64,000 nt of DNA from positions 1-64,000 of the forward strand of contig JBBHKE010000985.1 in the NCBI GenBank assembly GCA_037447655.1, in the 5' to 3' direction. This document shows, piece after piece, positions 871 through 64,000 of this stretch. This stretch comes from Zygnema cylindricum. Lineage: Eukaryota; Streptophyta; Zygnematophyceae; Zygnematales; Zygnemataceae. Under the pieces are notes generated by a model that was given only the letters and a program-made list of their open reading frames with translations, did no database searches and was not told where the DNA came from. Positions within the stretch are counted from its first letter, which is position 1; each line of letters starts with the position of its first letter. The position numbers and the translations under genes were made by a program.

Positions 871-876
871 ACTAAC

Positions 877-8787: not shown

Positions 8788-9003
8788 ATATAAACGCTAA
8801 TAACGATGAACGGTATATAAACGCTAATAACGATGGGCGGTATATTACCGCTAATAACGATGGGCGGTATATTACCGCTAATAACGATGGGGGGTATATT
8901 AACGCTAATAACGATGGGCGATATATTAACGCTAATAACGATGGGCGATATATTAACGCTAATAACAATGGGCGGTATATTAACGCTAATAACGATGGGC
9001 AGT
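8766..9003. repeat. 27-bp minisatellite, about nine copies
   Basis: The unit is close to GCTAATAACGATGGGCGG followed by TATATTAAC. Because 27 is a multiple of three, it produces repetitive open frames on both strands, which I do not regard as genes. The unit contains CTAATAACGATG, the end sequence of the MITE family found here, and the first unit is the right end of the MITE at 8594-8787. Confidence 0.9.
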
Positions 9004-36600: not shown

Positions 36601-36611
36601 TAGTAGTTTCG

Positions 36612-38083
36612 TCATCGTTCCCCTCGTTTCGTTCTCCTTCTCCAACGAAGTGGCCATGGCCGCCGAATCGGCCTCCACGTCCACCTCGTCCCCTCCACCA
36701 AATCGGCCACCGCCACGTCCTCCGAATTTGCCCCGCCTCCACAGCGGACGCCACCGCCATCGAATTTCGCGTAGCACTGCGGGCTAATGTTCCCCCATTT
36801 CTTGCAATAATGACATTGCTTCTCTTTATCCGGACATGAGGAGGACATATGGCCGGCCTTATTACACCGATAGCATGTAACAATGGACTTGTCTTGGAAA
36901 GGAGGTTGACCGGGAAAGTTTCCCCTCCTTTCGGTGCTTCTCCCCCTTCCCCTAGAACTGCCTCCTCTTCCCCTTCCTCCTCTTCCCCCACGGAGGAAAT
37001 TTAGATCCGCGGGTTCTTGAGCGGATACGTTCAGAGATCCACCCGAAGCCGAAGCTTTAGGAGGACCTCCGCGGTTTCTCTCGGTGGTCTTGAGGTAATT
37101 GACAATGAACTCATAAGTTGAATTTGTTTGTGCCCAAAGTATTTCTTTGAGATAAGTAAGATTGTCGGGTAAGGCGTTGATGAGGCCGATCACTTTGTCT
37201 TCCTCGATAATAATCCGACCGTTATTCGAGAATTGCTCCACAATAATATTGTATCGCTTGATCGCATCATCGATCGATTCGTTAGACTTTATCTTAAATT
37301 GGATAAAGTCCGTGTAGGCATATTGCCCCTTCTCAAATTGGCCTTCGAGTGCCTTCCAACACTCATGCGCCGTATCTTGGGTGAGGAAATGATCATGCAC
37401 CGAAGCGGTGCAAGATTGCATGAGGCCGGTGATGGCCGCAAGATTTTTCTTCTTCCAAAGGCGACGAGCCTTCGGATCGTTGATCGACATCTTTTCTTCT
37501 CCATTCACGATCTTCCAAAGGTGACGGAGAATGAGTTGCGCCTTGATATATTTCTTCCATATTTGGTAGTTAGATCCGTTAAAGAGAACGATCTTCCCCG
37601 GCATAGAAGGGATCGGTAACTCGTCATCGGATTCATATTCAAGATCCGAGTCGTTCTCGATCACAAACTTCCCCTTTCGGAGAGCCTCCCTCAAAATATC
37701 GTCATCCTCGACCCCTCCATCCGAAGGCATTTCTAAAGTATTCAAGATCGGATCCTCCTCCTCCACTTTAACTTTCCCTTTCGATTGGCATCTGTGATCC
37801 GTTGATCTACAAGAGTAAGAAAGCGTCAAACAACTTATTGAGACAGTCTTCGGTCAATACCACCCCTTCTTGTTTCTCTTTCTCCTCTTTTGGAAGTGGC
37901 TTTGGAGGGAGAGCCCTTTTCAAAAGTCGTCTCTCCTCCGAAGCCGAAATCTTTCACACTCTGATCTGGAGATGAATCAGCCAGATCCGGTAGATCCGGT
38001 AGATCCGGATTAGGAGCCGCAATAGGAGAAGGTGTGGATGAGGACTTCTTCTTCTTTCCCCCCATGGCGGCAAGACTTGCCAC
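36612..38083 (-). pseudogene. copia gag with zinc knuckles
   Basis: The N-terminus MASLAAMGGKKKK starts just after the primer site and hits a stop at 37835. Gag continues in another frame with KIVLFNGSNYQIWKKYIKAQ, the gag fold, and EILWAQTNSTYEFIVNYLK. An Arg/Gly-rich stretch precedes CYRCNKAGHMSSSC, a good CCHC knuckle, and CHYCKKWGNISPQC, in which Asn replaces the zinc-binding His. Gag packages element RNA. The frame is broken at least twice. Confidence 0.88.
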
Positions 38084-38617: not shown

Positions 38618-40200
38618 GGATGCGGTGGGAGAGACGGGTAGAGGGTAGAGTGTGGAGGGAGGGGGAGGAGATAGTGGAATATGGATGAGGGAGAGGGAGA
38701 GGGAGTGGAAGAGGGAGAAGGATAAAAAGCGGTAGAGAAATAGCGAGACGGAGAGGGAGAGGCGGTGGGATAGGGAAACGGGGAATTCGGAGGAGGGTGA
38801 GAGGGTGAGATGCAGAGCGATAAAGAGGAAGCCGGTGAGGTACAGGGTGGGAAGGAGAGAAAGAGTGGACATGATTGAGTGGGTAAGGGAGGGAAACTGA
38901 AAAGGTAAGAGGCGGGGATTCAGCGAATATGTGAGACAGGGAGAGGCTGAGAGTGGAATAGGGGGAGAGGCGGCGAGGAGCTTAGGTAAGGAGAGAGAGG
39001 CGGAAGGCGAGGGTGATGGCAAGGGAGTTGGAGAGGAAGAGAGCGGGTGAGAGTGGGAGACGGGGATGGAAGGCAAGGGGTTGGGAAGAGGGGAAGAGAT
39101 GGTAAGAGTGGGAGGAGATGTGGTGGAGATAGGGGGGAGAGGTAGAGGAAACGAAAGGGGTAGAAGGAGAACTGGATACGGACAGATTGACGAGGTGGGA
39201 GAGGATGAGGAGAGGGGGATGCGGAGGGAGATGAAGGATTCAAGGTTGAGGGATAGAGAATTAGATACAGCAAAATAGTGGTAGGGGGGGAGACGGCGTG
39301 AGGGGAAAAGGTTAAGAGCTGGAGAGGATGGAGGGTAAGATGAGGATAAGGGGATAGGGTAAATTTAGAGAGGCGAGAGAAAAGACAGGTGAGGGATGGA
39401 AAAGAGGGGGGAAATAGAGAGATGGAGGCGTGGAAAGAGGGGGATAGGGGAGAGATTGGGATGCGATAAGGAAAAGACTGGAAAAGAGGATAGAGGGGAG
39501 GAAAGGGAGGAAACGGGACAAGGAGAGGGTGGGGATTGAGAGCGAGTGAGAGAGAGAAAGGTAGTTGGAGAGGTAGTGGAAGAGGGAAAAGGGAGAGAGA
39601 GAGGGAAAGAGGAAATGGGATTGGGAGTGGGGGAGAGGTGGAGAGGCGGAGAGAGTGAGATGGCGAGGGAATGGAAAAGGGAAAAGAGAGCATATGAGTG
39701 GGGATGGAGGGCGAGAGTGCGGTAGGGGAAGAGAGGGAGGTTTAGAGGAAGGGGGAGATGAAGTCGGCGATAAAGGGAAATTAGGAGGTAGGGAGAGGGA
39801 GGGAGACAGTGAAGGGGGAGGGCCGAGGGAGAGGGAGAGGGAGAGGGAGGGAAGAGTGGTAGATGAGAGGGAGTGAGAGGAAGGAAGAGGTTGAAAAGGG
39901 TAACAGGCGAGGGGGCGGGAGAGTGGGAGGGGGGGGATTGGGGGAGGGGGGGATGGAGGGAGGGGGGGAGCGGTAGAATTGGAGGGGGGTAGATAGTTAG
40001 AGGGGAAAGAGGGAGAGGATGAGTGGACGAGGGCGAGAGTGGGAGTGGGGAAGAGGAGAGAGGGAGAGATAGAGAGGGCTAAGCGGAAAGAGGTGGAGGC
40101 CGAGAGGGAGTCTGAGTGAGATGGAAAAAGGGAGAGAGGAAGAGATGGAGAGGAAGAAATGGGTAGAGGGGTAGATGGGTAGAGGGCGTAGGTGGAGCGG
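38618..40200. repeat. 1.6-kb purine-only tract
   Basis: Nearly all G and A on the plus strand, built of GAGAGGGA-like words without a fixed period. It starts exactly at the copia LTR end. Long Ser/Pro/Leu or Arg/Glu frames across it follow from composition. It is the reverse complement in character of the pyrimidine tracts at 46-50 kb and 60-64 kb. Confidence 0.9.
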
Positions 40201-41500
40201 GGGCTAATTAGTAAATAGTTGAGAATATTTGATTATTATTCTTAATACTTACTAAATATTACTTAATAAATAATAATTAATAGTTAATCGTATTTACTTA
40301 ATAATAAATATTGAATATCCAATCTTTAATATATAATACTCTAAAATTTATAGTCATTAAAAACAGTTAATGCATTAAAAAATTATTATTTTGTAACTTA
40401 CAATCACCAATGAAAATTTCATACTTAATACTTAGTATTTAATATTTAGTAGTTAATAATCAATGTTTGATAATTGTTAATTAAGGCTCTAAAAGTCATA
40501 ATTAATAGTTGTCAGTTAATACTTTTAATTAAAATTTAATACTTAAAACTTTTAAATATTTTTTGCTTCAAATTATGTACTTTTTATGTAAATGTTAACA
40601 ATTCATGCCAAACTCTTTATACTTAATACTTCAAAATTGATATTTAGCGCTTAATAATTAATTACTAATAATATTATCTAAATAAATAAATAATAATCAG
40701 TAATTAATAATCAAGAACTAATATTAATAATTAATCATGAATGAATAATAATCTTAAAATACGTAAGACAATAATAACAATAATGATAAAATTAATAAAT
40801 AATAATAATAATACAACAATAACAATAATATCAATTATAATTTTAACAAGAAAATTATGAATAAATGTTACTAAGATACTAATAGTAATAAATAATAAAA
40901 TGTATTCCTACATTAGTTATTATCCATAAAAATACCAATAAAAGCAGTAAATTGTCACAAAAACATAATTGAGTTATAATTGTAAATAATTATGATATTA
41001 ATACAAATACTAATAAAATATACATTAAATATAACAAATAATAATAAATAACAATAACAATTGTAAATAATAAAAATATGAAAAATAATAGTAATATTAC
41101 AATAATCATAAACTAAAAGGTAATGATAACAATTGTAAATAAATGCTAAAAAATAATGTATAGTTTAATTCTAAAATTTCAAGTAATAAGTAATAATAAA
41201 CATCATCTTAATAATGAAAAAACAAATAACGATAAAATTATTATGAAGAAAAAAAAAATAAAATAATAATAATAAAATAAAAAATAATTGTAAAAGTATA
41301 AATAAGTATTTCTGAAAGAAAATAAATAATAATGGTCTACAAATCATCGTGTTAAATTACCAAAAAAATATAATCTCAAATTTTTGGAAAATTCCTTCAT
41401 TTTTTATAAAATTAATCCTAAAAAATTATTATTTTTTTTATTTTTTTTGCGTTTACTTATATATATATATTTGTTTCTAAGTACTTTGTTGTTTTATTTT
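40201..41500. repeat. 1.3-kb AT-rich triplet tract
   Basis: Built of TAA/TTA/AAT words. Together with the purine tract to its left it mirrors the AT-tract to pyrimidine-tract order seen in the LRR introns, in reverse orientation. No LRR core was found beyond its right end. Confidence 0.85.
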
Positions 41501-41682
41501 TTTTCCATGACCAGACCAAGAGGTGGTGCGTTCCCTAGATGGCCTGCTGGTTGATGCGTCCTAGAAGAAAGACTGAGGAGGGCGGAATTCCGATGCTCTC
41601 CGAGGTTGATTCTGTTCCCACTGTGAGGAACTACTCTCCAAGGAACTACTCAAGATTTCCACCACCCTTCCCACTGGTTGAA

Positions 41683-46242: not shown

Positions 46243-47425
46243 ATGTTTATATGTCTCTATCCCTCTCCCTTGCCCACACCCTCCCCACCTCTCTCTCTTC
46301 CCCTCCCTCTTTGCCCCCTCTCGTCCCTCTCTCATCCTCGTCTCTCTTTATCTCTTTATCTCTCTCTGCATCTCACTCTCCCTCTCTTCGCCTTTCCCCA
46401 TCGAACTACCCAGCCATTCCTGCTCAAAAAACCCTTCCCCTCTCTTTTTATCGCCCTCTCCACCACACCCTGTCTGCGCCTCTCCCTTTTTCCTTTTAAT
46501 TTCAACACCCTCTCCTTCTCCCACTCTACCTCTTTAGCCCTTTTCTACTTTTCACTCACCCTCGCCATCGCCCTATCCCTCTCCTACCACCTCCACTTCT
46601 TCCTCCCGCTCTTCCCTCCATATCTACATTTCCCTCTCCCACTCTCTCTCTCTCCCACCTCTCCCAAATCCCGTCATTCCTACCTCTTTCCCTCACCTTC
46701 CATCTACTTCCCCTCCTCCTTCCTCTCACCCACCATCCCCCTAACTCTTTTCCTCTCCCTCTTCCTCTCTATCCTCTCCCTATCCCGATCCTTATCCAAA
46801 TCCCTCTCCTCCCATCCCTCCCACCCAATTCCCCCCTCCACACACTTCCTCCTCCACTTCACACTCCCCTCTCTCCCTCTCTCCCTCTTCACCTCTCCCT
46901 CTCTCTCCCTATCTCTCCTCTTCCCTCATATATATCCATGTCTCTCTCCCCTTGGTCCACCCTATTTCCCTCTGTCTCTTTTCCCCCCTCCTCCTTCTCC
47001 CTCCCTGCCTTTCTCTCCATCTCACCCCCACTCTCCTTGTCTCCCTTTCTTACTCTTCCCCCCTCTCTTCCTCTTCATGCCTCGTCCACCCTCTCCGTCT
47101 CTCCCTCTCTCCACCCCTATCACTTCCTTTCCTCTCCCCCGCCCCCTCACCCACTCCCCTTTCTCTTAGACTCCCTCGTCCGTCTCCTCCACCATCTCCC
47201 TCTCCCACTTCCAATCTCCTCTACAGGACCTTATACATACCCCTCTCTCTCTTTCCTTTTCTCTTTCCCACTCCAACCCCCAATCCAAATCCCTCCCTTT
47301 CCCATTTTATCCCTTCGCCCTTCCTCCATCTCTCTCCCTCTCCCCTTTTCCCCATTTCCCACTCTGCCCCTCTTTTTTTCCCTCTCTCCCAATATCCCCT
47401 CCCCCGCCGTCTACCCCTATCATTA
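46243..47425. repeat. 1.2-kb pyrimidine-only tract
   Basis: CTCTCCC-type words with almost no purines. On the minus (sense) strand of the LRR gene it is a purine tract downstream of LRR exon A. Long Ser/Pro/Leu frames are products of composition. Confidence 0.9.
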
Positions 47426-47485
47426 AGAACCATTTTCATTTATACTATTTTTTATGAGTTAGAGCCAGAGTTTAATATGTCTTAC

Positions 47486-47557
47486 AAGCTTTCGAGGGAT
47501 GTAAGTTGATTGATGGATGATGGGATGTTTCCACTCAACTGGTTTTCATTAAGACTT
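47486..47557 (-). CDS. LRR exon A
   Basis: Encodes NQLSGNIPSSINQLTSLES, then TT before donor GTAAGAC. At the position where the other four exons have an AG acceptor this one has AT. AAG three bases further in would give a 69-nt exon, still in phase but one residue shorter. Confidence 0.75.
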
Positions 47558-50500
47558 ATGTGACAACAAAAATCCATAAAACCATTAATTTTTCTTTTTT
47601 TAAGTAATTACAAATGCCATGGGAAGAAAATCATTACTTCCCTACCAAGTAAACTTTGGTCATTCATGCTAATAATGGCTGAAACTAGACTGAAAAAAAA
47701 TAGCGGTAAAATAATTATCTGAATACTTCACAATATTCAGAGACACAATCACATTTTTTTATGTGCATCCCCTTTCCTCCATCCATTTAACCTGTTCTCG
47801 CCTTCCTTTTCTCTATTTCCTTTCCCTTTTTTCCCTCTCCCCCACTTTGCCAAAATTTATCACTTCTTTTTCATTTTATCTCCGTAACCCTCTAAAATGG
47901 AAAATCATTAAAATTTCAATAATGAAATTTCAATAGACAGAAACTAAAAATAAATAGCATTATAGAAAGAAACTATTCAAGAATAAAAAAAAACCAGATC
48001 GTAAATTCTATGCTAAAAATTTAAAATAATAGTAATTTTATAATTGATAGTTTACTAGTGGTAATTATAGGCCATGTTTTCGGATTTATTTATTGATATT
48101 TTTATAATTAGATATTTTAAATTTCATACTTTTTACCGTCAATTATTTTCTATTTATTTTGTCATAATTATGATTTTGATTATAATGAATTATTAATTGA
48201 AATTTTATTATTACACCATTAAAAAGCTTAATTTTCTATTTATTTATTATTATATGTATATATGCTTTTTATTGTAAATTTTATGCTTTACTATTATTAA
48301 TTATATTCTTGTGTGTATTATTTATTATAATTGTTTATATAATCATTACAATCATCGTTATAATTATTGTTATGCCTATCATTATTATTTATAACATTGT
48401 TGTTATGATCATTATTACTATTTTTATAATTGTTGTTATTATTATTATTTTAATTTTTATTATGATTGTTATATTTTTTCTTATTTTCTTATGATCATTA
48501 TATTTATAAACATTTAAATTATTAAAAAAAATAAAAATAGTTGAATACAAATTTATATTTATTACTTATTACTTAGTATTTATTGCTTGTTGATTATTCA
48601 CTAATCATTATGTTTTATTCATTACAAAATATTATAACATACATAACAAATAAATAATAACATTATAATATGTAAAATAACTAGAGGGAAAGTCAAACTC
48701 TCGTGCATGCAAGGTTTTCAATACATATTTATTAGACTGACAATCCCCTCTCCTCCTCTGCCTCTGTTCCTTTTAAACCTTCTCCCTCTCCCTCTCTTTT
48801 TCCCTTCTCTCCCCCACTCCTTTTTTCCCTAACCCCCCTCTCCTACCTCATTTTCCACTGTCCCTCTCTCCCTCTCCTCTTCTCTCCCTCTCTCCAACTA
48901 TCCATATCTCCCTCTATCCAAATCTCACTCTCCCTCTCCCTCTCTTTCGCCCTCATCTTTGTTCTCGGTCTCACCCTAACCATCGCGCCCACCCTGTCCC
49001 TCTCCCTTTCCCTATCCCTTTTTCTCTCCCTATCCTTCTCCCTCTCTTTTTGCCTCTCCTGCTCCCTCTCCCTCTCCCTTTTCCACTCCAACTCTATCCC
49101 AGGCCACTGCCCTCACCATCGACCTTGCCTGAAACCTCTGCTCACCCTCCCCCTCCCCGTCCTACACACCCTCCAACTTCCACTCCCCGTCCCGATTCTA
49201 CTTCCTATCACCCTCCATCCCCACCTAGCCCTCCCTCCTCTCCTCTTAAATCTCCCTCTACCCCTCCCTCAACATATGTTCCCCTCTCCACCTCGAAATC
49301 CCTTTACCCCGCAAGTTTCGTCTCCCTTTTTTCCACTCTGCCCCTCCCCCTCTATCTTCCCACCTTCTACCTCTAATTATTTCTCCCTCCCTCTCCTCCT
49401 CTTACCCACCCCCTCCCTCGCCACATATCCTTCTCCCTCTCCTTTTAACTCTCTTTATCTCCCTCTCTGCCTTTATCCCTCTCTTTCTCCCTCTCCTTAT
49501 TACTCCACCCTCTCCCGCTATCCTCTTATCTTTCAGTCTCCCATCCCTCTCCCACTCTTCCCCGCTCTCCCTTTGTCCCTCACTCCCTCCCTATTCCGTC
49601 TCTCCGTCTCTCCTTTCTCTGCCCCATCTTCATCCTAATTCCACATTTTTCCCAATATCTCCCCTCTCTCCCCTCCTGCCCCTCTCCCTCTCTCCCTTCA
49701 TTTCTGCCCTTCTCCACTCCCCCCCTCTGGCCCCTCGATCCCCTATTTCCTCTCATTCCCCTTCTCCCTCCCCTCTCCCACTCTTCCACTCTCCCACTCT
49801 CCCCTTCTCCCGTTATCTTCTCCCTTTCCTTTTCTCTCTTGCCCATTTTTCCCTTATAAATCTCCCTTTTCCTCACCATTACCCTCTCCCTCTCCCGCCT
49901 CCTCCATCTCCCCATCCCGCTCTACCCCCCCTATTCTCGTTTCCCTTTCCTCCTCCCCTTCTCTCCCCCCTCTACCACTTTCTTTCAATCCCAGCTCTTT
50001 ACCCTCTTCCTTCATCCTCTCTCTATCCTCCCTCCCTCCCTCCCTCCCCCTCCCCCTCTTTTCCTCCTCTCCTTTCTCCCCCTCCCCCTCCCCCTCTTCC
50101 ACCCTTTACTCATCCTCTCCTGATCCAGCTCCTTGCAATCCCTCTCCCCCTCACCCTCCTCCATCTCCCTCTCCACTCTTTGCTTTCGCAATCCCCCTCT
50201 CCCCCTCTCCCCCTCTTCCACTCTCCCCCTATCCCCCTCTCTCTCCCCCTCTTCCCTTATTTCTCAACATCTTTCTCTCCCTTGGGCCCACCCACTTTCC
50301 CTCTCCCTCTCCCCCTCTCATATTCTCCCTCTCCCCCTCTCCCTTTCTCCATCTCACCTCCAACTCTCCTTGTCTCCCTCTCCTTCTCTTCCCCTTTCTC
50401 TCACTCTCCCCACCTCCACCCTCTCCCTCACTCCCTGTTTTCACGCTTATCACGTCAACTCCTCTCGCCCTTTCCCTTCCCTACTCCCCCTTCCCTTCGA

Positions 50501-53500
50501 TCTTCCCCTCCCTCTCCTCCAACTTCTCCCTCTCCCTCTCTCCCATTCCTGTCTGACCTTATCCATATGCCTCTTTCACTTTCCTTTCTCTTTCCTACTC
50601 AAATTCCCAATCCACATCCCTCCCTTTCCCACTTTCCTTTTTCACTCTCCCCCTCTCCCTTCCCCTTATTTTTATCTCTCTCTACCTTCCCTTTTTTCCC
50701 TCTCCCTATTTCCCTTTTTCCCACGCTCCCCCTCTCTCTTTTTTTCTCTCCCAATATCCCCTCCCCCTTTTTACCCCTCTCATGACAAACCAATTACATT
50801 TAGACCACTTTTGAAGCTTTAGATACATAGTGTCATGTGTCTTACAAGGTTTCGAGGGATGTCAGTTGACCAATGGACGATGGGATGCTTCCACTCAATT
50901 GGTTGCTACGTAGAATTCTGTGAGAACGGGAGTTTCAACTCCATCATTCCCCACCTTCCGCAAGTGCCTCCAAGTTATTTTGAGTTATTAGCCAAAAAAT
51001 AATATATTCGATATTAAATGTCCTCCGTCAAAAACAAATGTCCGATTCATTTGTTTTCGTGCGAGATAATTTTCGCACTATATAATACTTGTTTCCATGT
51101 TCGTTCGTTTGCAATTTCCGTTAATCAAATTCATAGACGTAACATTGTTTAAATATAAATCAAACCTAATGTATCCTAACAGACTTCTACGACAGACTGG
51201 TTAGAGCTAACGGCTAGGCCGCGCTTTACCGGTCGAAGGTTCGAGTCCTGCCGGACTCAACCTTTTGTTGAGAGTGACATAAGTCACTCTTTAGCCCTGC
51301 CTGCTTAAGCTAGGACAGCCATGGCTCAGCCACCTTCTCTATCCCTCAATGACTACGACAATTATGGTGAGAAGCGAGAGGAGGCGGAGGCAGGCTGTCC
51401 ACCTTTTTCTATTTGTACTAAATTCGGACCTAGAAAATACCATATAAAACTAATAATTTCAACACTACGTTTCTTAGGGTACGTCCCCATGTATTAAAGT
51501 ATCTACTTTTCTATTGCCCTAAAATTTAGGGAACTTTGACATAAACTTTAGCCGTACGAGGAAATCATTTTTACCAAAGTAGAGTGAACGTCAATTCATA
51601 CTTTGGATGTACGGCGTGTTTGTTGTCATGTGAATGCATTTTGGCGTTTTCCCCTTTTCGACCCCCGGGCAAGAGAATCCAGCGCAAAAAAAAACTTCAT
51701 CCCGAATCACCTCAAAGGGGTGATTTTAGTTCAAGTATCGCCCAAAAAGCGAATGAAAAATGACCCATGCATGCGCCACAAGAGTGGGAAAATTTTAGGA
51801 TGAAGGAGAGTCCTCGCTATTTTTCTCCGTGTCCGTCACGCGGATGTACGGAAAAAAAATCTGCAGGGGTCTCGGACCTTCACTTTCATTGATGGGGTCT
51901 TTTGCAAAATTTTGCGCCGTCGTCGCCTCTCCCCTCTCCCTCTCACACTATCGCTTTTATCTCACACTATTTAGAATGAGACCCAACAATATTGGTATAA
52001 AATGAAAGATTTTTGAAAAATATTATTTTTAACAATTTTTAGGTTTTATTTTTTTGGCAAGTCGAGTGAAAAAAGAAGAAATAACAGTCGGGGGCGACCG
52101 GGTGCTTTGCCCTTTGGTTGCCAAGGGCCTGTCGTTTTTGTACACGCGGACCAATCGGGGCGTCACAATTTGTCGTTGGAGTAACACGTACTTCTTCACG
52201 TATGAATCCATTTCTGGAAGAGTACGGATACAGTGATCACGACAGCGTGGTGTTATGTGATACGATCGCACGCGCAAAAATAAAATGTACGATTCTGTAC
52301 GTTACTCTACCGGTATTGATAACACGATATTTTGCATGTCAAATTTCTCTAGCCAATTATAGATTTGCAATAGATATTGTCAGTTAGTTGATAGATATTT
52401 TCTCGCCCATCAAACTTCGTGGGGCTACGATTTTTGTACAGCTGAGATTGCTGAATCCAAGGACAAATCTGGTACAACGATATGGACATTGATCCATTTT
52501 GACCGTCGATGGTAAAATACTTTCAGCAGTTCATTTTGCAGGTACTGAATGGTACCATTCATTATTTGTACTGTACTATATTCCCCGCGCGTCCTGCGAA
52601 TAGAGTACCGTATAGAGAAGTGCAAAACGTTTCTACATTTGAGATCGGCGGTTGTGGATTGTCTTGTGAACAGCTCCCCTTGTCTCGTCATTGCAGCGCA
52701 ACTCTGGTTCTCTTCCAGTTAACCACTACCTATGTCTCCCTTTCCCTTTTTTTTTCTTTCCCTCCCTCTCTCTCCCTCCTTCCCTCTCTCCCCCATTTTT
52801 TCCTTCCCTCTTTCTCACCTTCCTTCTCTCCCTTTTCCCCTTATTAATTCTAGATATTTTGAACATTCAATAGATGAGAGGGAGAGGGAGTGGGAGAGGG
52901 AGAGGGTGAGGGAGAGGGAGAGGCAAAAGCAAAGCTTAGGGTTTGAGTTGCAAAGGTCGGAACAAGGGGAGATACATCGCCATATACAAGGGGAGATACA
53001 TCGCCATATACAGAATTATAATAAATCTATTACATACAGAATTATGATATATCTATAATATACAAAATTATAATATATCTATTATATACAGAATTATAAT
53101 ATATATATAATAAACAAAATTATGATATATATATTATATACAAAATTATAATAGATATATATTACATATATATTATATATATATATATTATGTATATTAT
53201 ATATATATGTATATATATATATATATATCTATATGTATATATATAATATACATATAATAATTGGGGAAGACATACACTTAATATTTGGTGGTTTTCTGAT
53301 TTTTTTGGGTGGTGAGTTTGACTTTCAGGTTGTTGTCGAAAAGTCTCCAGTGGTTTGGAATCAAATGATGACGAGAGCAGAATGACCAAAGCAAGGTAGG
53401 TTTGCAAACATGAATAAAGTACATTATTATTATTGTTGTTGTTATTGTTGTTGTTGTTGTTGTGTTTTTTGTTATTGTTATTGTTGTTGTTGTTGTTGTT

Positions 53501-56500
53501 GTTGTTATTGTTATTGTTATTGTTATTGTTATTGTTATTGTTTTTGTTATTGTTAATGTTATTCATAAGTAATTAGTGTCATTCTCAATTAGTTTTCAAT
53601 GATCAAAATGTTCATTTCGGATCTTTTGCCTAGAGATCTGTGGATTTTAGGGTTTAGGGTTTAGAGTTTGTCATTTTTGCCATTTTTGTTGGTGACGTAA
53701 CGTAGATCTTGTTGTCTTCTTTTCTGAAAGGATCTTTAGGGCATGTTAGGGCGATGGCTTGACAATTTTTTTTTTTCCCCACCGGATTATAAACTAACGT
53801 AAAAAATGCAAAAACTTTGTGATTGTGTCGACCATTTTCGTGGCGCTTCATGATATGGCAGTTGTCTTATGTTGATGTTACGTAAAAAGAGCCTTCAGAC
53901 GGAGAGAGTCTCGACATGATATGTCATAACATGTCATGTCACGGCATGTCATGGCATTTCACGTCATGTTACGTCATGTCACGATATGTCATGTCATATC
54001 ACGTCACGTTACGTTACATCATATGTGTATATTTGAAGTTAATGTGAGGGCGCAAGGGATAGTTAAGACTCAAATAGTGTAAACCACAATCCTCCACAAA
54101 CAACAATTTATACATTTTTTGTTGTAGTTATTGTAAACATGTATTTCATTCCTTTTTATTTTTATGTTTAATTTTGGGGTTTATTTGTCCTTTCTTTTTT
54201 AAACGTTGTTAAGGGGTTTATCCGAATCTGAATTGGGTTTTTTTTGCTTTTCACGATAAAATTTTAAAGATATTGTGGGCTTTGGATATTATGTTGCACC
54301 AGAGGTAAGCTTTTACTTCAATTGTTTTTTTTTCAAAATAGACACGAAGCTAATTTGTACTATGAGTATTCAAATATCGAAATGAGCCTCCTTGTGGAGT
54401 TTTGGATTGAGAGTGATGACTTAATTTGTGTACATATTATCATCTTAGCGCAGGTACTACCTCGTAAGTATGGCTCAAAAGCAAAGGAATAGAGCAGCGG
54501 TGTCATTTTTTATATTATACTCTGTGGTGTGCCCTCTTTTGGGCCGGTGAGTTAACCAATCTTTCCGTCTGTCACTCTGTCTGGCCATCCGGTTTGGCTA
54601 GTCATCACGTATATTTTGTTAGAAATACTGGGTGAATCGGCGGATCGGCCAAATTCACGTTTGGCTCAGTTCGCGTTAAGTTATGTTTGTTCAGTTCGCG
54701 TCGGCGGTTAAGTTGTTGGTACGTTTTGTTTCGTTTGAATTACTTGTACTGTACCGTAACATTTACTTCATGTCGTTTGGTACGGTATGGGCGTCAGTTC
54801 GTTTATTGTGCAAAACCGTGGTACCATACTTTGGTTCAGTGCACGTTTAAGTTCTGCGTCACTTCTGTTTACGCGCTGAAGGTTCTATTGCGCGTGAGTG
54901 AAATACGTGTACTTGAAGTCTAAATGAGTTAGTACCGTGAGAAGGAGAAATCGTCCGTGTAAGTTTTCGTGTAGTTAGTGGAAGAAGTCGTGCAGACTAA
55001 GTCTTCCTTTGAGCCCTTATTTACGAAGAAGTATGAGTCAAGAATTATTATGCTTCTGTAGTAGAAGATGCATCAGAGTTAAGTGAGAGTGAGTGTAAGG
55101 AAGTCAGTGAGAGTAAGTGGAGAAGTGAGAGTAAGTGAGTGAGTGAGAAGAAGAGATGTGAGTGAGTAAGAAGAGTGAGAGCAAAAGTGAGAGTTGTGTA
55201 AAGGAAAAGGAAAATCTTTCGGCTGAATAAAAGTATATTTGGTCGATGATCCGAGAGATGTGAGCGGATCGATCCGATGGATTATCTTGCCGCCGTGATT
55301 TGATCCTTCGATCCGATCCTTTTGCTCCTCCCTCCCTTTTTCCAGCTTTCCTGACGGATTTGCTTCCTTTCCTTTCCGATTGCAGATTTGATTAAGATTT
55401 TGATCTGTTCCCCCGAACTATTCCAGCGGATTTTGATCTCCTCGATTTCCTCTGTTTTGATCCTCGATTCTCGCCTGATCGATCCATTTCCTCTCAATCT
55501 CTCCCCTCTCGCCCTCTCACCCCATCTCCCTCTTCCCTCCCCTTCCTACTCCCTCTCTCCCACACCCGCGCCTCCATCCCTTCTTCAACCATCAAGATAC
55601 GTAAATATCCATAATTAGGTTGTCTTTAGTAACACTCTAAGTAACAATAAAAGTACAAATTAAAAAGTTGTGCTTTTGACAAAATTCAAAATTAATTATA
55701 TTTCGAACTACTTTTGCAACAAACTATTGTCATTTACACCACTTCCTCTAGTGAATCAAATATACGGTGAACTGTTTTCTACAACAAGCCAATTTTATTT
55801 AGCCCAATTTTGATACGCAACACAACCATAGAGTAATGTGTCTTACAATTCTCGAAGGGATGTCAATTGACTGATGGACGATGGAATGGTTCCACTCAAT
55901 TGGTTGTAAGATAACCGTCTGCAACAATACGCATACGAAAAATCAATCACAAAAAATAATTGAAAAAAAAGCACATACTAAGGGGAAAACTAGTTCACAA
56001 TTTTCAAAAACACTATTGAATTTGTTTATATGCACCCCGTCTACCTCCTCTTCCTTCCTCCCTCCTCTTTATTTCTCCCCTTTGTGTAGCTTTGCCAAAA
56101 TTTGTCACTTATTTTTTTCAATTCAAAAGAAAATCAGCTACATTTTATAATTAATTTCTAAAAAAAAAAATACAAGTTTATAACAAAAGACTACAGCCAT
56201 AAAAAAAATACTTTATGGCAATGTAAAATTTGAAAAAAAGAATGTCGTTCTTTTCCTTTGATTGAAATTGAAAGGTTTTCCTAAATATTTTATTCATGAT
56301 AATGACTAACGATTAGTTTTGGTTGTTAACATAAGATTATCGTGTTTGTGCTAATAGACCATTTTTACTAAATATCATTAAAAATGACTTAATTATATTT
56401 TTATAATTAATTATTTATGTTTTTTTATTTTTATTCTTAATTATTTATTTTGTCATTATTATAATTATATATATTATAACTTATAACTCGAATAATTTTT

Positions 56501-59500
56501 TTTTTTTTTTTTTTAAATAATTTCTATTATTATTGTTATTACTATTATTATTATCGTAATAATTACTATCACTATTATAATGATTTTATTTTCTATTATT
56601 GTTATTATTATTGTTATCATTATTTATATAACTAATATTTTTATTATTACTTGATTACGTTTATTAATATTGATATTATTATTATTTTATTTTTTTATAT
56701 TAGTAATTATTGTAATAGTTATTGTTATTTTTATTAATATTGTTATAACTATTACTGTTATTGCGATTATCATTAGCATTATTTTACTTATTTTATTTTT
56801 ATATTATTCCTATTATTATTTCAATGAATATTATTATTATTATTATTATTGATGTTAATTAATTATATTTATTAGTGTTGATATTATTATTATCTATTTT
56901 TCTTAATTGTTATTTATTGATAGTTAATTTATATTTTGTGATTATTACAATTTAATAATCATTAATTACTATCAATAATTAGTGTAACTTATTAGTTATT
57001 AGTTATTACTTGTTAATCATCAAACGCGTTTTGTTAAATTTTGATTGTTTTTTTTCTTTAAATAAGTATTAATTATTGAGTGTTAATCATTTAATATTAA
57101 ATATTACGTATTCAATAAGGGACGGGGAGAGGGCGGGGAAAGAAAAGGTAAGGACGACAAGGGGGGAACGGTGGAAAGAGGGAGAGAGGAGGGGGGTAGA
57201 GGGGATGACAAAAGAGGGCGGGAGAGAGAGGGGGAGCGAGGAAAAGAGGGAAAGGGGGAGAGTGGGGAGGCGTTGTAGAATGGGGAATAAAGAGAGAGGG
57301 AGGGGGAGAAAGGGCGAAAGAGAATGGTCGGGTGATAGGAAGATAGAGAAGGAGAAATAAAAGTAGAGGAGGGGGAGGAAGGAGTGGAAAAGGGGAAAGG
57401 AGGGGGGTAAATGGCTGGCGAAGGGAGGAGGGGAAGGGTGAGGGGGAGGGGGGCAGGAGTGGGGCAGGGACGAGGAGGGAGTGTGAGAGGGACGGAGGGT
57501 GATGGCAGGAGGGTCGAGCGGGAGGGGAAAGTGTGAGATGGAAAGGTGGGTACGGGGGGGGGAGGGGAAGGAGAGGAGAGGGGGATAGGGGTAGAAATGG
57601 AAAGGTTGGCAGGGGGAGGGCTGGAGGAGGAGAGAATAATCGGAGGAAAGAAAGAGAAAAAAAGGAGTGTTGGGAGAGAACGAGGAGAGAGGGTGTACAG
57701 AGTGGTGAGAGAGGAGTTAGGAGCGGCGGTATATTGGGTGTAGGGGAGCAAGACGTGGAAGGTGAGAGATAGGGAAAGGTAGAGGAAGACTAATGGGAGG
57801 GTGGTAAGGAAAGGGAGAAAGGAAAAGAGGGGGAGAAGGAATGAGGGGCAGAATGGAGAGGTAGGGGGGGTATGGAGAAAGAGATATAGAGGGAGAGGGT
57901 GAGGGAGATGGAGAGAGATAAGGGCAAGTGAAAGGCCAGAGGGTAGAGGAGGGAAGGAGCGGAAAGATGGTGGGTGAGGGGAAAAGAGGAAGAGAGGGAT
58001 GCCGAGTAAGAGGGGGAGGGTGACGAGGCGGGCAGGGGGGGTATAAAAATCGAGAGAGAGAGGGGGAGAGGAGGAGAGGGAAAGAGTGGGAGGGGGCGAG
58101 AGAAGGGGAGGAGGAGAGGGGGGGAAATGGATTTGGGGAGAGGCGAATAGGGAGAGGGTGAGAGCGAGAGTTGGAGGTGGAGAAGGCGAGATAAGGAGAG
58201 GGTCAGAGGAGGAGAGGGGAAGGGGCAGAGAGGGCGAGAGATTGAGAGAGAGGGAAAGGGATAGAGGGGGAAAGTGCGAGAAGGTTAGTGGTATAGAGGG
58301 AGGGAGAAGGGGATATGGTAGAAGGGGGAGAGGTTAGGGACGAGGGAGTAGGAGAGGTGTAGAGGGGGGGGGGAGGATAGATGAAGAAGGAGATGGGGGA
58401 ATAGAGAGAGGGGAGAAGTGGGAGAAAAAGAAAGAGGTGAGGGAGATGAAAGAGGGGGTGACTTAAATAGCGAGGAGAGGGGATATTGCGATAGGAGGAG
58501 AGGGTGAATAAAGAGAGAGTCTAGAGATAATAGATATAGAAAAGAGTATTAGATAGATTATTGGGGGAGAGGGATATAGAGAGAGAAGGGAAAGAGGTAA
58601 GGGAGGAAGTGGGAGAGGGAGAGGAATAGAGAAAAGGCGAAATGGAGAGGGAGAGAGGGAGAAAGGGATGCGCGGTAATAGAGAGGGGGATATCTGGAAG
58701 GGGGAGGAGGATGGGATGGGTAGATTGTGAGTGGGGATATTCAGAGAGGGGAGAGGAAGAGAGGGAGAGAGGGAGAGGAAGGGCGAGTGAAGGGGAAAAG
58801 GGAGCAGGTGAGGACGAGCGGGAACGGAACGCCTTAGGGGTACAGAGAAAGAGGGGAAGAGATAGAGGAATTGGAAAAATAAGAGAGGGTAGGTCAGATG
58901 TGGTGAGCGAGAGGGAGAGAGAGAGGTAATGGGCGAGGCAAATGGAGGGGGAGACAGAGAGGAGGAAAGGGAGACGAACACAGAAGGGGAGGGATAATGT
59001 AAGGTGGAAAAGAGGGGAAAAGAAAATAGTAGGGTAAGGGGGGTAGGGAGGTTCGGAGGGGGGAAAGAGGGCAGGAGAGGAAAAGGGAGAGTGAAAGGGA
59101 GGAGAGAGACAAGGAGAGGGAGTGGTAGACGGAGAGAGAGGGCGTGGTAGAGGGTGGGAACGGGTGGCGGGGGTAGAGGGGAGTCAGAAAAAGGAAGCGG
59201 GGGAGTAGTCTAGAGGGCAAGTGGGGGAAAGGGGGAAAGGGGGAAAGGAGAAGAGCGATATAGATGGAGCGAGGGAGATATGTAATGGTAGGAGGGAAAG
59301 GGTGAGGAGAAGGGAGGAGGAAGTGGGGGTAGAGGGAGTGTGGGAGAACGGGAGAGGGGAAGAGAGAAGAGGAGGAATATGGGAAAGGGGGAGATGTGGG
59401 GAGAGGGGAATAGAGGGAACGATGGAGGAGAGGGTGGAGGGGCGTGTAGGGAGGTAGAGAGGGCGAGAAAGGAAGATGGAGGGTGGGAAGAGAGGGGAGA

Positions 59501-61391
59501 GATAAAAATATGGAAAAAAGGACTCTAACCCTCTCTCATTACCTTCCTCGCGCTCTCTCTAACACACGCCCGCGACCTCACCCAAACCCGCTTAAAACCT
59601 CTTCCTCAAGTTCCCATCTCTCTCTCTCTTTCCTCTCTTTTGTCCTCTACCTCTGTCTCAACCTTTTTTCCCTCTCTCTTGCTGTCCCCTCTCTCCTCTC
59701 TCTCCCCTTTCCCTCCTCTCTCTCTCTCCCCTTTTACCCGTCAGAGCCTCTCCGACACTCGCCCTCTCCTCCTCGCGTCCCTCTAACCCCCTCGTTCTTT
59801 TTTCCCATTGCCCTTGCCCTTCTCACCCACTTGCCTCTCCTCCACCCCCGGGTCCTTTTCCACCATCAAGTCACGAAAACTTATATATTTAGATTGTTTG
59901 CATAAAAATTGTAGAATAAAATTTGTTTTATTTTTATAAACTTCAAAATTAGCTCATAGATCTCTGTGGCGAACTATTTTTTGACAGTAAATCATTCCAT
60001 TTAGTCCAGTTTTGATGCTCAACACAATCAGTGTCATGTCTCTTACAAGATTTGGAGGGATGTCAGTTGAACGATGGACGAGGGAATGCTTCCACTCAAC
60101 TCGTTGTCAGATAGCAATCTGTGAAGAAACAGACATTCGCAAAACCAATCAGAAAAAAAAACATATATATATATATATATCAAGGGAAAAAAAAAACAAT
60201 ATATTAATTTTAATGTCACTAGTGTATTTCTTTATACGCACTCCCCTTCCCCTTTCCCTCCTCCCACCATGTTTTTTGGACAATTTGTCACTTATTTTGT
60301 AAATAAAATATAAATTCGACATATATAAGTTAATACATAGATCTAAATTAGCAGTAGTAAAAGTTTATAACAAGGAATTACCTCCAAAAAGCCTATAGAG
60401 TAAAGGTCAACCAAAAAAAATTACAAAACAAAATCTTATGATTAAGGTTTACCAAATATTAACCTCCCCCCCCTCTTACCCTCCTCCAGTACCCCCCCCG
60501 GCCCCGACCGCTATCGCCCCATGCCCTTCTTTCCCCTCCCCCTCTCTCGCACCCTCCGCCTTCACCTCCCTCGTACCTCCCCCACCTCTCTCTCCAGCTA
60601 CCACGCCATCACTCTTTCCTTCTTTCTCTGTCTCTCCCTCTTTACCCCCTTTTTTCTTTCCCACTTTTCCTTTCCCACTTTTCCTTTCCCCTCCCTTTTT
60701 CTCTTTCCTTATCACACCTTTCACCGTCCTATTTTTTCTCGTCTCTTTCTCTCATTTTTTTCTCTCCCCTTATCCTCCTCTCCCCCTCTCCCCTTCTAAC
60801 CCTCGACCCTTCTTCCCCTCGCTCACTCTCCCGCTCTCCCTCTCTCATCTTGTGTTCCACCCCTTCTCCCCCCTTCCCTATCTCACCGTCCACTCTCTCC
60901 ACCTCTCTATTCTCTCTCTCCCACTTCCGCTCTCTCCCACACCCCTCTACGCCCCCGTCCCTACCTCACGCCCGTCCCCTCTTCCCCTTCTCTCTCTCTG
61001 GCCCTTTCCCCCTCCACAGCCCCCTCTCCCTTGTCCTCTTTATCTTCCTCTCTTCTACTCTCTCTTTCTCCCCCTCTCTCAGTCTCCTCTTTTTACTCTT
61101 CCCCCTCCTCCCCCTCCCCCTCCTCTCTCTCTCTCTACCACGTCCTCCCCCTCAGATTGTCTTTTATAAATGTTAAAATATAAGTAAAATTCAAAATGAG
61201 AATGATTTTATTTTAACAAACTTCAAAATTACTTGTGTGTTGAACACTTTTTTGCAAAATTTTTTTTTTATTTGGACCACTTTTTATGCGTAACACAACC
61301 GTAGTGTCATGTGTCTCACAATTCTTGGAGGGATGTCAGTTGACCGATAGACGATGGAATGCTTCCACTCATCTGGTTGTAATTGAGAACT
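47486..61391 (-). CDS. split LRR gene: five single-repeat 72-nt exons in giant introns (partial)
   Basis: Five conserved cores each encode one extracellular plant-type LRR on the minus strand. In transcript order they are 61391-61320, 60118-60047, 55918-55847, 50917-50846 and 47557-47486. Every exon starts with A and ends TT, so joining gives TTA (Leu), keeps phase 2 and yields an uninterrupted LxxLxLxxNxLSGxIPxxIxxLTSL array. Donors are GTAAG in four and GTGAG in one. Four acceptors are AG; exon A has AT there, with AAG three bases downstream. LRRs of this class form ligand-binding ectodomains of plant receptor kinases and receptor-like proteins, and one-repeat 72-nt exons are known in such genes. 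Introns are 1.2, 4.1, 4.9 and 3.3 kb, filled with purine/pyrimidine and AT tracts. Differences among exons fall mostly at third codon positions or variable LRR sites. No start, signal peptide, transmembrane, kinase or stop exon was found, so the product is partial or the array is a relic. Confidence 0.82.
47890..48700. repeat. AT-rich triplet tract
   Basis: TTA/ATT/AAT words in the intron between LRR exons B and A. The boundary with the core is marked by GCCAAAATTTATCACTTC, which recurs next to exons C and D. Confidence 0.85.
48740..50780. repeat. 2.0-kb pyrimidine-only tract
   Basis: CTCTCCC words with very few purines, ending in CCCAATATCCCCTCCCCC, a phrase also found at the end of the 46.2-47.4 kb tract. 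This shows that tract ends were duplicated along with the LRR cores. Confidence 0.9.
50846..50917 (-). CDS. LRR exon B
   Basis: Follows acceptor TCTCACAG, encodes ILRSNQLSGSIPSSIGQLTS then LET, and ends TT before GTAAGAC. Exactly 72 nt. The repeat matches the plant consensus at every conserved site. Confidence 0.88.
51190..51420 (+). mobile_element. tRNA-derived SINE-like element
   Basis: A box TGGTTAGAGCTA (51198) and B box GGTTCGAGTCC (51238-51248) have near-canonical sequence and spacing, followed by CCTGCCGGACTC and a non-tRNA body containing GGACAGCCATGGCTCAGCC. The acceptor stem does not close, so I call it a SINE and not a tRNA gene. It lies in the LRR intron between exons C and B. 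Confidence 0.6.
51421..52960. other. intronic non-coding region
   Basis: GTAC-word-rich DNA like that at 16-31 kb, then a pyrimidine patch at 52735-52840 and a purine patch at 52873-52925. No exon recognised. Confidence 0.4.
52966..53266. repeat. tandem repeats: 25-bp duplication, then AT-rich units of about 26 bp
   Basis: AAGGGGAGATACATCGCCAT is repeated twice at about 52966-53012. It runs into imperfect units of about 26 bp (ATATACAGAATTATAATATA type) to about 53160, and then into TA-rich simple sequence. Confidence 0.85.
53421..53566. repeat. (TTG/TTA)n triplet microsatellite
   Basis: GTT and ATT triplets alternate for about 145 bp, giving a poly-Asn frame on the minus strand. That frame is a repeat product, not a gene. 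Confidence 0.9.
53646..53666 (+). repeat. short TTTAGGG telomere-type run
   Basis: Two perfect TTTAGGG units and one TTTAGAG. TTTAGGG is the plant-type telomere repeat. Three units are too few to prove telomeric origin. Confidence 0.45.
53918..54015. repeat. CATGTCA/ACGTCA degenerate array
   Basis: About a dozen partial copies of CATGTCA, CACGTCA, CATGGCA and related words, spaced roughly 8 to 10 bp apart. Each unit is nearly self-complementary. Confidence 0.7.
54263..54546 (+). pseudogene. calcium-dependent protein kinase fragment, nonsense-mutated
   Basis: An exon ending at 54304 reads NFKDIVGFGYYVAPE before donor GTAAGC, the activation segment of a CDPK-type kinase. After an intron ending GCGCAG, the exon 54454-54546 reads VLPRKYGSKAKE, a TAG, then SSGVIFYIILCGVPSFGP before donor GTGAGT, matching the CDPK stretch that normally has ADIWSAGV. 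The TAG at 54490-54492 replaces the Trp, and the conserved Asp two residues earlier is lost. CDPKs are plant and protist calcium-activated Ser/Thr kinases. Other exons were not found. The fragment lies antisense in the intron between LRR exons C and B. Confidence 0.65.
54547..55480. other. non-coding region with GTGAGT-rich repeats
   Basis: From 54617 (TGTTAGAAATACTGGG) it has some LTR-like features and includes AATAAA near 55226. 55081-55190 is dominated by GTGAGAGTAAGTG words, and 55255-55480 by repeats of GATCCGAT. No protein domain was seen. A solo LTR is possible but its borders are unproven. Confidence 0.35.
55847..55918 (-). CDS. LRR exon C
   Basis: Follows acceptor GTTGCAG, encodes RLSYNQLSGTIPSSISQLTS then LRE, and ends TT before GTAAGAC. 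Exactly 72 nt. Confidence 0.88.
56150..57110. repeat. AT-rich triplet tract
   Basis: TTA/ATT/TTG triplet DNA in the intron between LRR exons D and C. Hydrophobic Ile/Val frames here are repeat products. Confidence 0.85.
57115..59520. repeat. 2.4-kb purine-only tract, inverted relative to its neighbours
   Basis: GAGGGAGA words with almost no pyrimidines on the plus strand, whereas the other tracts of this gene region are pyrimidine on that strand. The switch to pyrimidine at about 59520 is abrupt. Confidence 0.9.
59525..59870. repeat. pyrimidine-rich tract
   Basis: CTCTCTC words running up to the conserved core of LRR exon D. It ends with CCACCATCAAGTCACG, like the end of the 55.5-55.6 kb tract before exon C (CAACCATCAAGATACG). 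Confidence 0.85.
60047..60118 (-). CDS. LRR exon D
   Basis: Follows acceptor CTTCACAG, encodes LLSDNELSGSIPSSIVQLTS then LQI, and ends TT before GTAAGAG. Exactly 72 nt. Confidence 0.88.
60460..61155. repeat. pyrimidine-only tract
   Basis: CTCCCC words filling most of the short intron between LRR exons E and D. A 243-codon Ser/Pro/Leu frame across it is a composition product. Confidence 0.9.
61320..61391 (-). CDS. LRR exon E
   Basis: Follows acceptor ATCAAAG, encodes VLNYNQMSGSIPSSIGQLTS then LQE, and ends TT before GTGAGAC. Exactly 72 nt. The donor change from GTAAG to GTGAG keeps a functional donor consensus. It is the first exon of the array found in this window. Confidence 0.86.
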
Positions 61392-61579
61392 CTTTGATAA
61401 TAGACATCCACAAAACAAATCATAAAAATTAAAAATTGAAAACAAAAAAAATATCAAAGGACAAAAACCTATAGTTTACATTTTTCAAAAACACTAAGGC
61501 ATTTGTTTACATGCAAATTTTGTCCCCCTTCTGTTTAACCTTCAACCCCGACCCTTTATTTTCAAAAAAATGAAGGTCA

Positions 61580-63110
61580 ATTTAAAATAATTAAATTACT
61601 ATATATTAAAATGACAATTTTTATTTTTTAAATTAGATCTTTATGTTTTACCGGTGTTCTTTAGAGACCGTTTTTATTTTACATCATTAGGAATTACTTA
61701 ACGGTTTTTCTTATAATTGATTATTATTTTTTCAATGATTTTTTGTAATTAATAATTCACTTTTATCATCGTTGCAATTATATTATTGTTAATCATTTCT
61801 TCAAAATTTACATTCATACTTTTAAAAACATTTTATATATTTTTTTATTATAATTATTAATATTACTATATTTTACTACGATCATCATTGTTATTTATTT
61901 TATTAATATATACTATCACTATTTGAATTATTGTCGTTGTAAGTATTGAAAAATAGTGTTTAACATTATTACTATGAGTAACTATTATTCATATTATTAT
62001 TATTTTTGTTATTATCACTAATATTTTTATTATTAATATTCATATTAATTTTACTATTAATATTATTATTATTATCATTATTGTTATTCATAATACTAGT
62101 TTATTATTAATATTATTATGTTTCTTTTTATTGTTATTTTTATTGTTATTATTGAAATTTCTATTATTATTTTTGTTTCTATTATTATTATTTTGGTTGT
62201 TGTTATTATTGTGATTTTTGTTGTTATTATGATTCTCGTTTTTTTTTCGATTGTTGTTATTCTGGTGATTGTCGTTATCGTTGTGATTGATGTTATTACT
62301 ATAAGTATTGTTGAGAATACGATTGTTGTTATTGTTATGATTGGTGTGATTGTTGTTATTGTAGTGATTGTTGTTTTTGCATTAATTGTTGTTATTGTTA
62401 TTTTTGTTGTTATTTTTGTTCTACATGTTTTATTTATTATTGTTGCTATTACAGTTGTAGTTGTCGTTATTAATATTGTTGTTATTATTGTGATTATTGT
62501 TATTATTGTTATTATTATTATTGTTATTATTACTACTATTAAAGTATTGATTATTGATTATTGCGTATTAAGTGTTAATAATTATGTCACGGTTATTAAT
62601 CATTAATTACAAAATAGCACAGATTAAGTATTAAGTTTTAAATATCAAGTTGTTTATCAAGCATCAAGTAGTAATTAATTAATATAAAACATTGACTGTA
62701 GATTATTAAGTATTATTTATGAATCATTAATTAATAATAATTAAGTATTTAGTATTAAGTATTAAGTATGGAGGATTAAGTATTGAGTTTAACTTTTAAT
62801 ACGTATGAATTGTTCGATATTGATAACAAACTTTCAAGTATTTACCACTAATTATTGAAAATTAAGTAATGAGTATTAACTTCAAATTTGAATTAGAAAA
62901 TTTTAATTACTTAGTATTAAATAATAAGTATTATGTTTTCATTTTTAATTATTAATCATCAGATATTAAGTATTAGATATTTTATTTTAATTATTGCTTA
63001 TTAATCATTAAGCATTAACTACTGATTATTATTAAATATCAAGTAATAAGTCTTAAATATTACGACTAAAGTATTAATTACTAAGTTTAAATTCTTAAAT
63101 ATTAAATAAA
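61580..63110. repeat. 1.5-kb AT-rich triplet tract
   Basis: GTT/ATT triplet DNA upstream of exon E on the sense (minus) strand. Its right half has recurring TTAAGTATT/TAATTATT words like those at 40201-41500 in the reverse orientation. Confidence 0.85.
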
Positions 63111-63114
63111 TAAT

Positions 63115-64000
63115 TTCTCCTCTCTTTCTCTCACTCTCTCTCTCTCTCTCTCCATCTTTTTCCCCATCTCTCTCCATCTCTCCCTCACCCTCTCTCTACC
63201 TTCCTCTTCAGTACCCCTCACTCTTCCCCCCCATCACTCCCTCTACTCATCTCCCCCTCACCTCTAACACTCACCCTCAACACTTCTCCTCTTCCCACCT
63301 TCCAGCCCCCGCCTCACTTTTCCTCTTCCCCTCCCCCTCCCCTCCTCTCCCTCGCCCACTCTCTCCCTCTCTCTCCCGCTCTCTCTTTCTTTTCCTTTCC
63401 CGCTCTCTCCTTCTCTCCCTCTCCCCCTCGCCGCCTTTCTGCCTCTCCACGACGTCTTTTCTCAACCTCTCCTACTCTCCTTTCGTCTCTCCCTCTCCCT
63501 TCCTCCATCCCTCTCTCACCCTCTTTTTTCTCCCTCTCCCCCTTTCCTCCAGTCCCTCTCTCCCCCTCGCCACTTCTCCTTCATGATCCTTCTCCACCTC
63601 CCCACGTTCCCCCCGCCCCAACTCCCCATGCCCCTCTCTCTCCCCCACCTCCAATCTCCTCCCCTCCACCTCTTCCCTCACTCTCTATTCCTTTCCTCAC
63701 CCTCTTCCCCTCTCTTTTCCCATCTCTCCTCTATCCCCTCTCTACTTCTTCCTTGTTACCAGTTTCCCTTTTCCTCTCTACTCCCTCTCACCTCTCGTTC
63801 TCCCTCCCCTCTATCCTCCATCTCTCCTCTCTCATTCTCCATCTCTCACCATCTCCCCTGTCCCCCTTTCTCCCTGACTCCACCTAACCGTCTCCCCCTC
63901 ACCCCCTCTCCACCTTCCTCCCCCCAATGACATACCACTTTCACCCTCCCCCCCCCCCTCACTCCTTTTTGCCCCCTCCACACCTCTCTCTCTCCCCCTC
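63115..64000. repeat. pyrimidine-only tract running off the window
   Basis: CTCTCCC words to the window end. By the pattern of the other units a further LRR core could follow just beyond the window. Confidence 0.9.

Follow-up and report, generated by a model that had tools for sequence, protein, structure and literature searches.

Five short exons, one leucine-rich repeat each, of a probable plant-type receptor gene with tract-rich introns

Can five short coding cores, set kilobases apart on one strand among long tracts of simple sequence, be the exons of a single gene? The question is raised by positions 47486 to 61391 of a 64,000-nt stretch of contig JBBHKE010000985.1 (the window, that is, the whole stretch of DNA that was analyzed), where an earlier note, made from the sequence alone, had described a leucine-rich repeat (LRR) gene with one repeat per 72-nt exon on the minus strand. 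We consider it likely that the cores, numbered E1 to E5 in the order of the gene strand, are five consecutive LRR-domain exons of a single gene for a plant-type LRR receptor (a receptor kinase or a receptor protein), probably from a streptophyte, and that this gene extends beyond the window. A common transcript for all five and a surface receptor as its product are what we infer from the sequence.

The anatomy of the exons is the first line of evidence. Reading of the minus strand confirmed all five cores, with one LRR each, where the note had placed them. E1 (61320..61391) encodes VLNYNQMSGSIPSSIGQLTSLQE plus split Leu codons, and its 72 nt lie between an acceptor that reads AAG before A and a donor that reads TT before GTGAG. 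E2 (60047..60118), E3 (55847..55918), and E4 (50846..50917) encode LLSDNELSGSIPSSIVQLTSLQI, RLSYNQLSGTIPSSISQLTSLRE, and ILRSNQLSGSIPSSIGQLTSLET, respectively; each of these is likewise 72 nt long, with CAG before A at the acceptor and TT before GTAAG at the donor, and E1 to E4 are all of phase 2/2. E5 (47486..47557), which encodes SLNENQLSGNIPSSINQLTSLES, has an intact donor. Each core holds one plant-type LRR, with one base in front of it and two behind. As the note had said, all five end in TT before a phase-2 GT donor (GTAAG in four, GTGAG in one), and in four of the five an AG stands exactly 72 nt upstream of that donor. Its further claim, that the cores start with A and that splicing makes the missing Leu codon and keeps the phase, also holds up: in canonical joins TT + A rebuilds the Leu between repeats and the joined frame is intact. 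None of the five exons contains an in-frame indel or stop. Read through unspliced, every donor gives TTG-TAA or TTG-TGA, so that an open reading frame (ORF) finder stops there and misses the exons, a blindness that the note had predicted. ORF-based annotation can therefore miss genes of this kind, whose 72-nt exons lie 1.2-4.9 kb apart and each end in a stop of their own frame.

A chance origin of the five cores, which the note had called negligible, is ruled out by pattern shuffles and by profile scans of block-shuffled sequence. When up to three mismatches are allowed, a degenerate pattern of 24 bases derived from the five cores themselves has five sites in the window, against a mean of 0.01 and a maximum of 1 in 100 shuffles. 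With a 24-residue LRR profile built from 445 repeats of 120 database matches, E1 to E5 are the sole sites in the window above a score of 10 (40.3, 41.8, 38.5, 47.6, and 40.2, respectively), no further LRR core there exceeding that score, and the highest score in five block-shuffled windows is 12.9. The joined translation of 119 residues matches Pfam LRR_1 (6e-20) and also LRR_4, LRR_14, and LRR_8, and the SGxIP signature of the plant-type 24-residue LRR is present in all five exons. Among the best 60 of 363 matches to solved structures, the closest by sequence are the ectodomains of the plant receptors GSO1, FLS2, and PEPR1. The best match in the protein database is an LRR protein from a metagenome (60% identity over 89% of the query, E 1.7e-47), in a search limited to proteins 0.55-1.75 times as long as the query, a range that full-length receptors fall outside. 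Exact-pattern scans of viral and prokaryote contig collections gave no matches, a result that says little, as the collections are of viruses and prokaryotes only and may lack the window's own records.

The pattern of substitution makes the five exons look protein-coding. Overall, the ratio of non-synonymous to synonymous divergence (dN/dS) among them is 0.58 (dS 0.42, dN 0.24), and for the scaffold, calculated as the dN of that class over total dS, it is 0.17 (bootstrap 0.04-0.53). The face, that is, the five x positions of xxLxLxx, which we take to be the ligand-facing residues, has a dN of 1.59, with bootstrap values of 1.7 to 21.6 times total dS; its codons carry 77.7 of the 108.7 non-synonymous differences counted over pairs, which are not independent of one another, and only 2 of 33,649 five-codon sets hold as many. 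In neutral simulations, which were started from the majority consensus, itself no true ancestor, the scaffold changes number 7 against a neutral mean of 23.4 and the face changes 18 against 7.2, values as low and as high, respectively, being reached in none of 20,000 simulations. When the exons were compared with the 84 of 120 homologs that have at least four repeats, scaffold difference between repeats was 0.12 against a homolog median of 0.42 and was as low in 3 of the 84. It is the uniformity of the scaffold, more than the diversity of the face, that sets these exons apart from their homologs.

The exons are also alike as DNA, which marks them as paralogs, and in one case the likeness reaches far into the intron. 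Ungapped exon identity is 71-81% across all ten pairs, and in seven of the ten a blastn alignment at 1e-4 runs through the exon: 77% over 252 columns for E1/E3, 73% over 276 for E1/E2, 80% over 131 for E2/E4, 79% over 131 for E1/E4, 80% over 124 for E3/E4, 81% over 80 for E2/E5, and 70.5% over 1186 aligned columns (E 9.6e-144) for E4/E5. The first 70 nt of the intron share 63-78% identity between copies, compared with 58-63% in shuffled flanks, so that most pairs stand out, and the last 70 nt before the exon show a weak likeness among E1 to E3 and none for E4 or E5. By eye, the alignment of the 3' flanks reveals one type common to E1 to E3 and another common to E4 and E5. The long E4/E5 alignment pairs two minus-strand units, each an exon with the purine tract downstream of it, at 49771..50927 (E4) and 46454..47567 (E5). 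Aligned on their own, the two tracts give z = 23 relative to block-shuffled controls, and the 20 other tract pairs tested give z of 2.1 or less. Given the homology of these tracts, a single duplication took exon, flank, and tract together, and the locus clearly documents one way in which an LRR gene can lengthen, an exon having been copied with a kilobase of intronic simple sequence. We also considered that all purine tracts might be copies of one tract, which is unsupported, homology being limited to those of E4 and E5; the remaining tracts are either of separate origin or no longer recognizable as copies.

We therefore turn to the tracts themselves, among which the note had located the cores. 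The cores do not lie inside tracts; they sit in ordinary sequence between them. Where the note speaks of giant tract-filled introns, tracts make up 35%, 42%, and 51% of introns 1, 2, and 4 by the thresholds used, and only about 7% of intron 3. Intron 1 (60119..61319, 1.2 kb, minus strand as are the others) has a purine tract on the gene strand at about 60581-61160, a gene-strand purine fraction of 0.88, and tract coverages of 31.5% for purine/pyrimidine (R/Y) and 3.6% for AT sequence. Intron 2 (55919..60046, 4.1 kb; R/Y 22.3%, AT 19.6%) carries gene-strand pyrimidine tracts at 57121-58710 and 58941-59520 and an AT-rich tract at 56081-57120. Intron 3 (50918..55846, 4.9 kb; R/Y 1.4%, AT 5.8%) consists largely of ordinary sequence, and an AT/TTATTG microsatellite zone occupies 52991-53610. 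Intron 4 (47558..50845, 3.3 kb; R/Y 30.1%, AT 20.7%) has purine tracts on the gene strand at 49321-50780 and 48741-49100, then an AT-rich tract at 47891-48700. An AT-rich zone around and 5' of E1 (61161..63130, no strand assigned) spans the exon as a consequence of merging pieces less than 200 nt apart, and a gene-strand purine tract 5' of E1 follows at 63111..63880 (minus strand). The purine-then-AT order found before E5 thus recurs before E1, to near the edge of the window, which suggests that a further exon may lie beyond 64000. By the same thresholds, degenerate purine/pyrimidine and AT tracts make up 13% and 15% of the region from 38 to 64 kb, compared with 0.6% and 0.4% from 1 to 38 kb, so that tract density in 38000-64000 is some twenty- to forty-fold higher. 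The tracts are thus, as far as this window goes, a feature of its LRR half. No LRR core adjoins the tract pair at 39501-41520.

These observations fit the following course of events. Each exon is a symmetric phase-2 cassette of 72 nt for one 24-residue LRR, and the array grew as exons were duplicated in tandem together with their introns, most clearly in E4/E5 with its purine tract, presumably through unequal crossing-over between introns or tracts. The introns lengthened through growth of simple-sequence tracts and through insertions. Under selection the LRR scaffold was preserved, and diversity built up at the exposed residues of the concave side.

How far is such a gene already known? The study of rice LRR-kinases (PMC3050792) reports that LRR-domain introns interrupt the first Leu codon of xxLxLxx in phase 2 and that most short LRR pieces of structurally complex genes measure 72 nt and encode one repeat (the wording there says intron where exon must be meant); origin by exon duplication and shuffling was proposed. 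The same source lists 35 single-exon LRR-kinase genes in rice, and the multi-exon layout is hence not universal in plant LRR genes. The present exons share the 72-nt, one-LRR design with phase 2 at the first Leu, exactly in four of the five and at the donor only in E5. They differ in the long purine, pyrimidine, and AT tracts that their introns (1.2-4.9 kb) carry, and in that no kinase part is seen here in the 20 ORFs searched. The note had called this an unusual receptor-like gene. A plant-type LRR coding segment is indeed present, and it agrees with the multi-exon rice LRR-kinases in the size and phase of its exons and in where the introns fall; "receptor-like" is a label that we likewise infer, and the note's alternative, an LRR exon reservoir, is conjectural. 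The exon anatomy is thus of a known kind, and the tract-rich introns and the clean duplication of exon plus tract are less usual. Literature under open licenses, judged mostly from titles and the openings of abstracts, contains no mention of tract-filled LRR introns in a streptophyte, and a passage of PMC5296948 gives nothing on exon size. Uniform LRR exons are also found in other lineages. In Tetrahymena (PMC6564038), LRR genes have, as here, uniform phase-2 exons, multiplied in that case by ectopic recombination, but these are 90 bp long and belong to a ciliate, unlike the present 72-nt exons. Vertebrate gonadotrophin receptors, as described in PMC11378527, resemble the locus in their similar-sized phase-2 LRR exons of exon-duplication origin and differ in being animal receptors.

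The lineage of the genome bears on the type of gene. A gene for an MA3-domain (PDCD4-like) protein at 9407-12510 (minus strand), which has plant relatives and two GT-AG introns of 607 and 550 nt, was used as a splice control and lineage marker. Among the 120 of its 129 matches that were listed, every relative named to organism is a flowering plant, with at most 60% identity in the part that aligns, and a EukProt match (68% over half of the query) carries a label that we take to be Spirogloea. From these flowering-plant relatives, the genome is of the plant lineage and probably that of a streptophyte, and the length limit of the protein search, which drops full-length relatives, leaves every streptophyte lineage possible. 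According to PMC10868138, receptor-like kinases occur in most charophytes, with about 435 in Chara braunii, and kinase-associated LRRs have been traced to the earliest streptophytes.

Several observations weigh against the single receptor gene that we favor. No blastn alignment runs through the exon at 1e-4 for E1/E5, E2/E3, or E3/E5, the last pair having only a short match outside the exon, and the first 70 intron nt of E1/E5 and E2/E5 are hardly above shuffles (0.63 vs. 0.61). Intron 3 is long and mostly ordinary, so that there could be two genes, one with E1-E3 and the other with E4-E5. The sample for the selection analysis is small (five exons of 23 codons), the proportion of non-synonymous differences at the face is near saturation (0.66), and a stop-free outcome is reached in 17% of neutral simulations, which makes the absence of in-frame stops weak evidence. 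Face difference between the repeats is 0.90 here (four units with full context), and the homologs' face also differs between most repeats (median 0.86). The database matches, among the 120 of 1374 listed, mix plants, bacteria, chytrids, and others, including a foraminifer (Reticulomyxa, which we presume to be one); the repeats alone accordingly do not place the organism, since such LRRs also exist in other groups than plants. No kinase domain was found in the 20 ORFs of the window that were searched with Pfam, a set that takes in 10 of the 24 stop-to-stop ORFs listed between 41300 and 46300; no search was aimed at caps, signal peptides, or membrane spans. Finally, the acceptor of E5 reads CAT, AT replacing the AG of CAG in E2 to E4 and of AAG in E1, which is the main blemish on the picture of five equal exons. 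In the stretch from 60 nt upstream of the exon to 15 nt within it, two AGs are in frame: one, 3 nt inside, would give a 69-nt exon that loses one residue of the xxLxLxx strand, and the other, 36 nt upstream, would give an open exon of 108 nt. The exon may thus be used in a shorter or a longer form, be skipped, or be in decay.

The lost acceptor of E5, the lack of a kinase domain in the ORFs searched, and the long tracts and other sequence in the introns would all be at home in a decaying array, either a once-working LRR gene or a split-off cluster of its exons, that is now a pseudogene and is still recognizable since it was copied under selection; the lack of stops, not significant alone, fits this too. 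We nevertheless regard decay as unlikely, given that acceptor, donor, phase, and frame are kept in four of the five exons, that scaffold dN/dS is 0.17, and that neither an in-frame indel nor a stop occurs in any of the five. The repeats could instead be the LRR segment of another gene class that shares this exon rule, for instance of a ROCO GTPase gene; they would then not be part of a surface receptor. ROCO genes of brown algae were reportedly first described by Zambounis in 2012. In PMC11378527 they have, like the locus, 72-bp phase-2 exons of one LRR each; exon shuffling and alternative splicing are reported for them, and LRR-only loci are suggested as a possible reservoir; LRRs of the present kind do also occur outside plants. 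That class is very improbable here, since plant receptor ectodomains come first among the solved-structure matches, the relatives of the MA3 gene point to a plant genome rather than a brown-algal one, and no ROC or COR domain was found in the same 20 ORFs, the gene being incomplete in the window.

The symmetric phases of the exons admit a further explanation, that the locus is combinatorial, with exons skipped in any combination as tracts of opposite polarity in introns 1, 2, and 4 form duplexes in the pre-mRNA by which exons are looped out, to yield LRR arrays of varied length. Tract polarity on the gene strand does alternate, purine in introns 1 and 4 and pyrimidine in intron 2; the best predicted RNA duplexes of opposite-polarity tracts (200-nt windows) reach -222 and -245 kcal/mol, compared with -13 for same polarity, and alternative splicing of such exons is described for the brown-algal ROCO genes in PMC11378527. 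Composition-shuffled tracts, scanned with the same steps, pair nearly as well, at -198 to -213 (five shuffles) and -220 to -233 kcal/mol (two shuffles), so that most of the pairing is composition and little sequence-specific pairing is left; we hold such skipping to be highly unlikely. A broader conjecture, which we rate as decidedly unlikely, is a streptophyte cassette locus of near-identical scaffolds and fully diversified ligand faces, in which the tracts promote both germ-line unequal crossing-over and exon skipping and so generate a family of receptor ectodomains from one locus. If it were true, plants too would diversify receptors by way of exons, as has been proposed for brown algae.

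If the five exons do belong to one receptor gene, a signal peptide and an N-terminal cysteine cap would be expected 5' of E1, probably beyond 64000, and the 3' end of the gene may lie elsewhere or in short exons. Some smaller features lie within its introns and exons. Intron 3 contains, by eye, two CCCTAAA units of a plant-type telomere-like repeat (53640-53670, minus strand) and, near E4, a tRNA-like stretch that begins GGACTCGAACC (51180-51300, minus strand), perhaps a short interspersed element, for which ARAGORN makes no call; this putative element might help to explain the differing 5' flank of E4. With a mobile element as carrier of an exon in mind, inverted repeats were sought in 50600-56200, where the 25 of 67 pairs listed are AT- or purine-rich. 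ARAGORN predicts a tRNA-Ser(CGA) at 55822-55908 (plus strand), antisense over E3, which we treat as false; Rfam at gathering thresholds gives no match in the window, and the prediction overlies the complement of a coding exon.

Elsewhere in the window, a Copia-type retrotransposon occupies 33183-37829 (minus strand) in several ORFs with Pfam matches to gag, integrase, and reverse transcriptase; the best match of a Copia ORF is a protein without an organism name (66% identity), the next by score being at 47-48%, with Closterium at 48%. Pfam also identifies PARP catalytic ORFs at 872-1399 (minus) and 4855-5307 (plus) and CCCH zinc-finger ORFs at 1928-2578 (minus) and 19902-20366 (plus), and a further CCCH zinc-finger ORF at 18214-18771 (minus) is apparent by eye only, without a Pfam match. 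Together, the PARP and CCCH ORFs look like a small local CCCH/PARP gene family, which would be unusual for a plant genome. A tandem repeat with a 27-nt unit in 8.8 copies (92% match) lies at 8764-9000.

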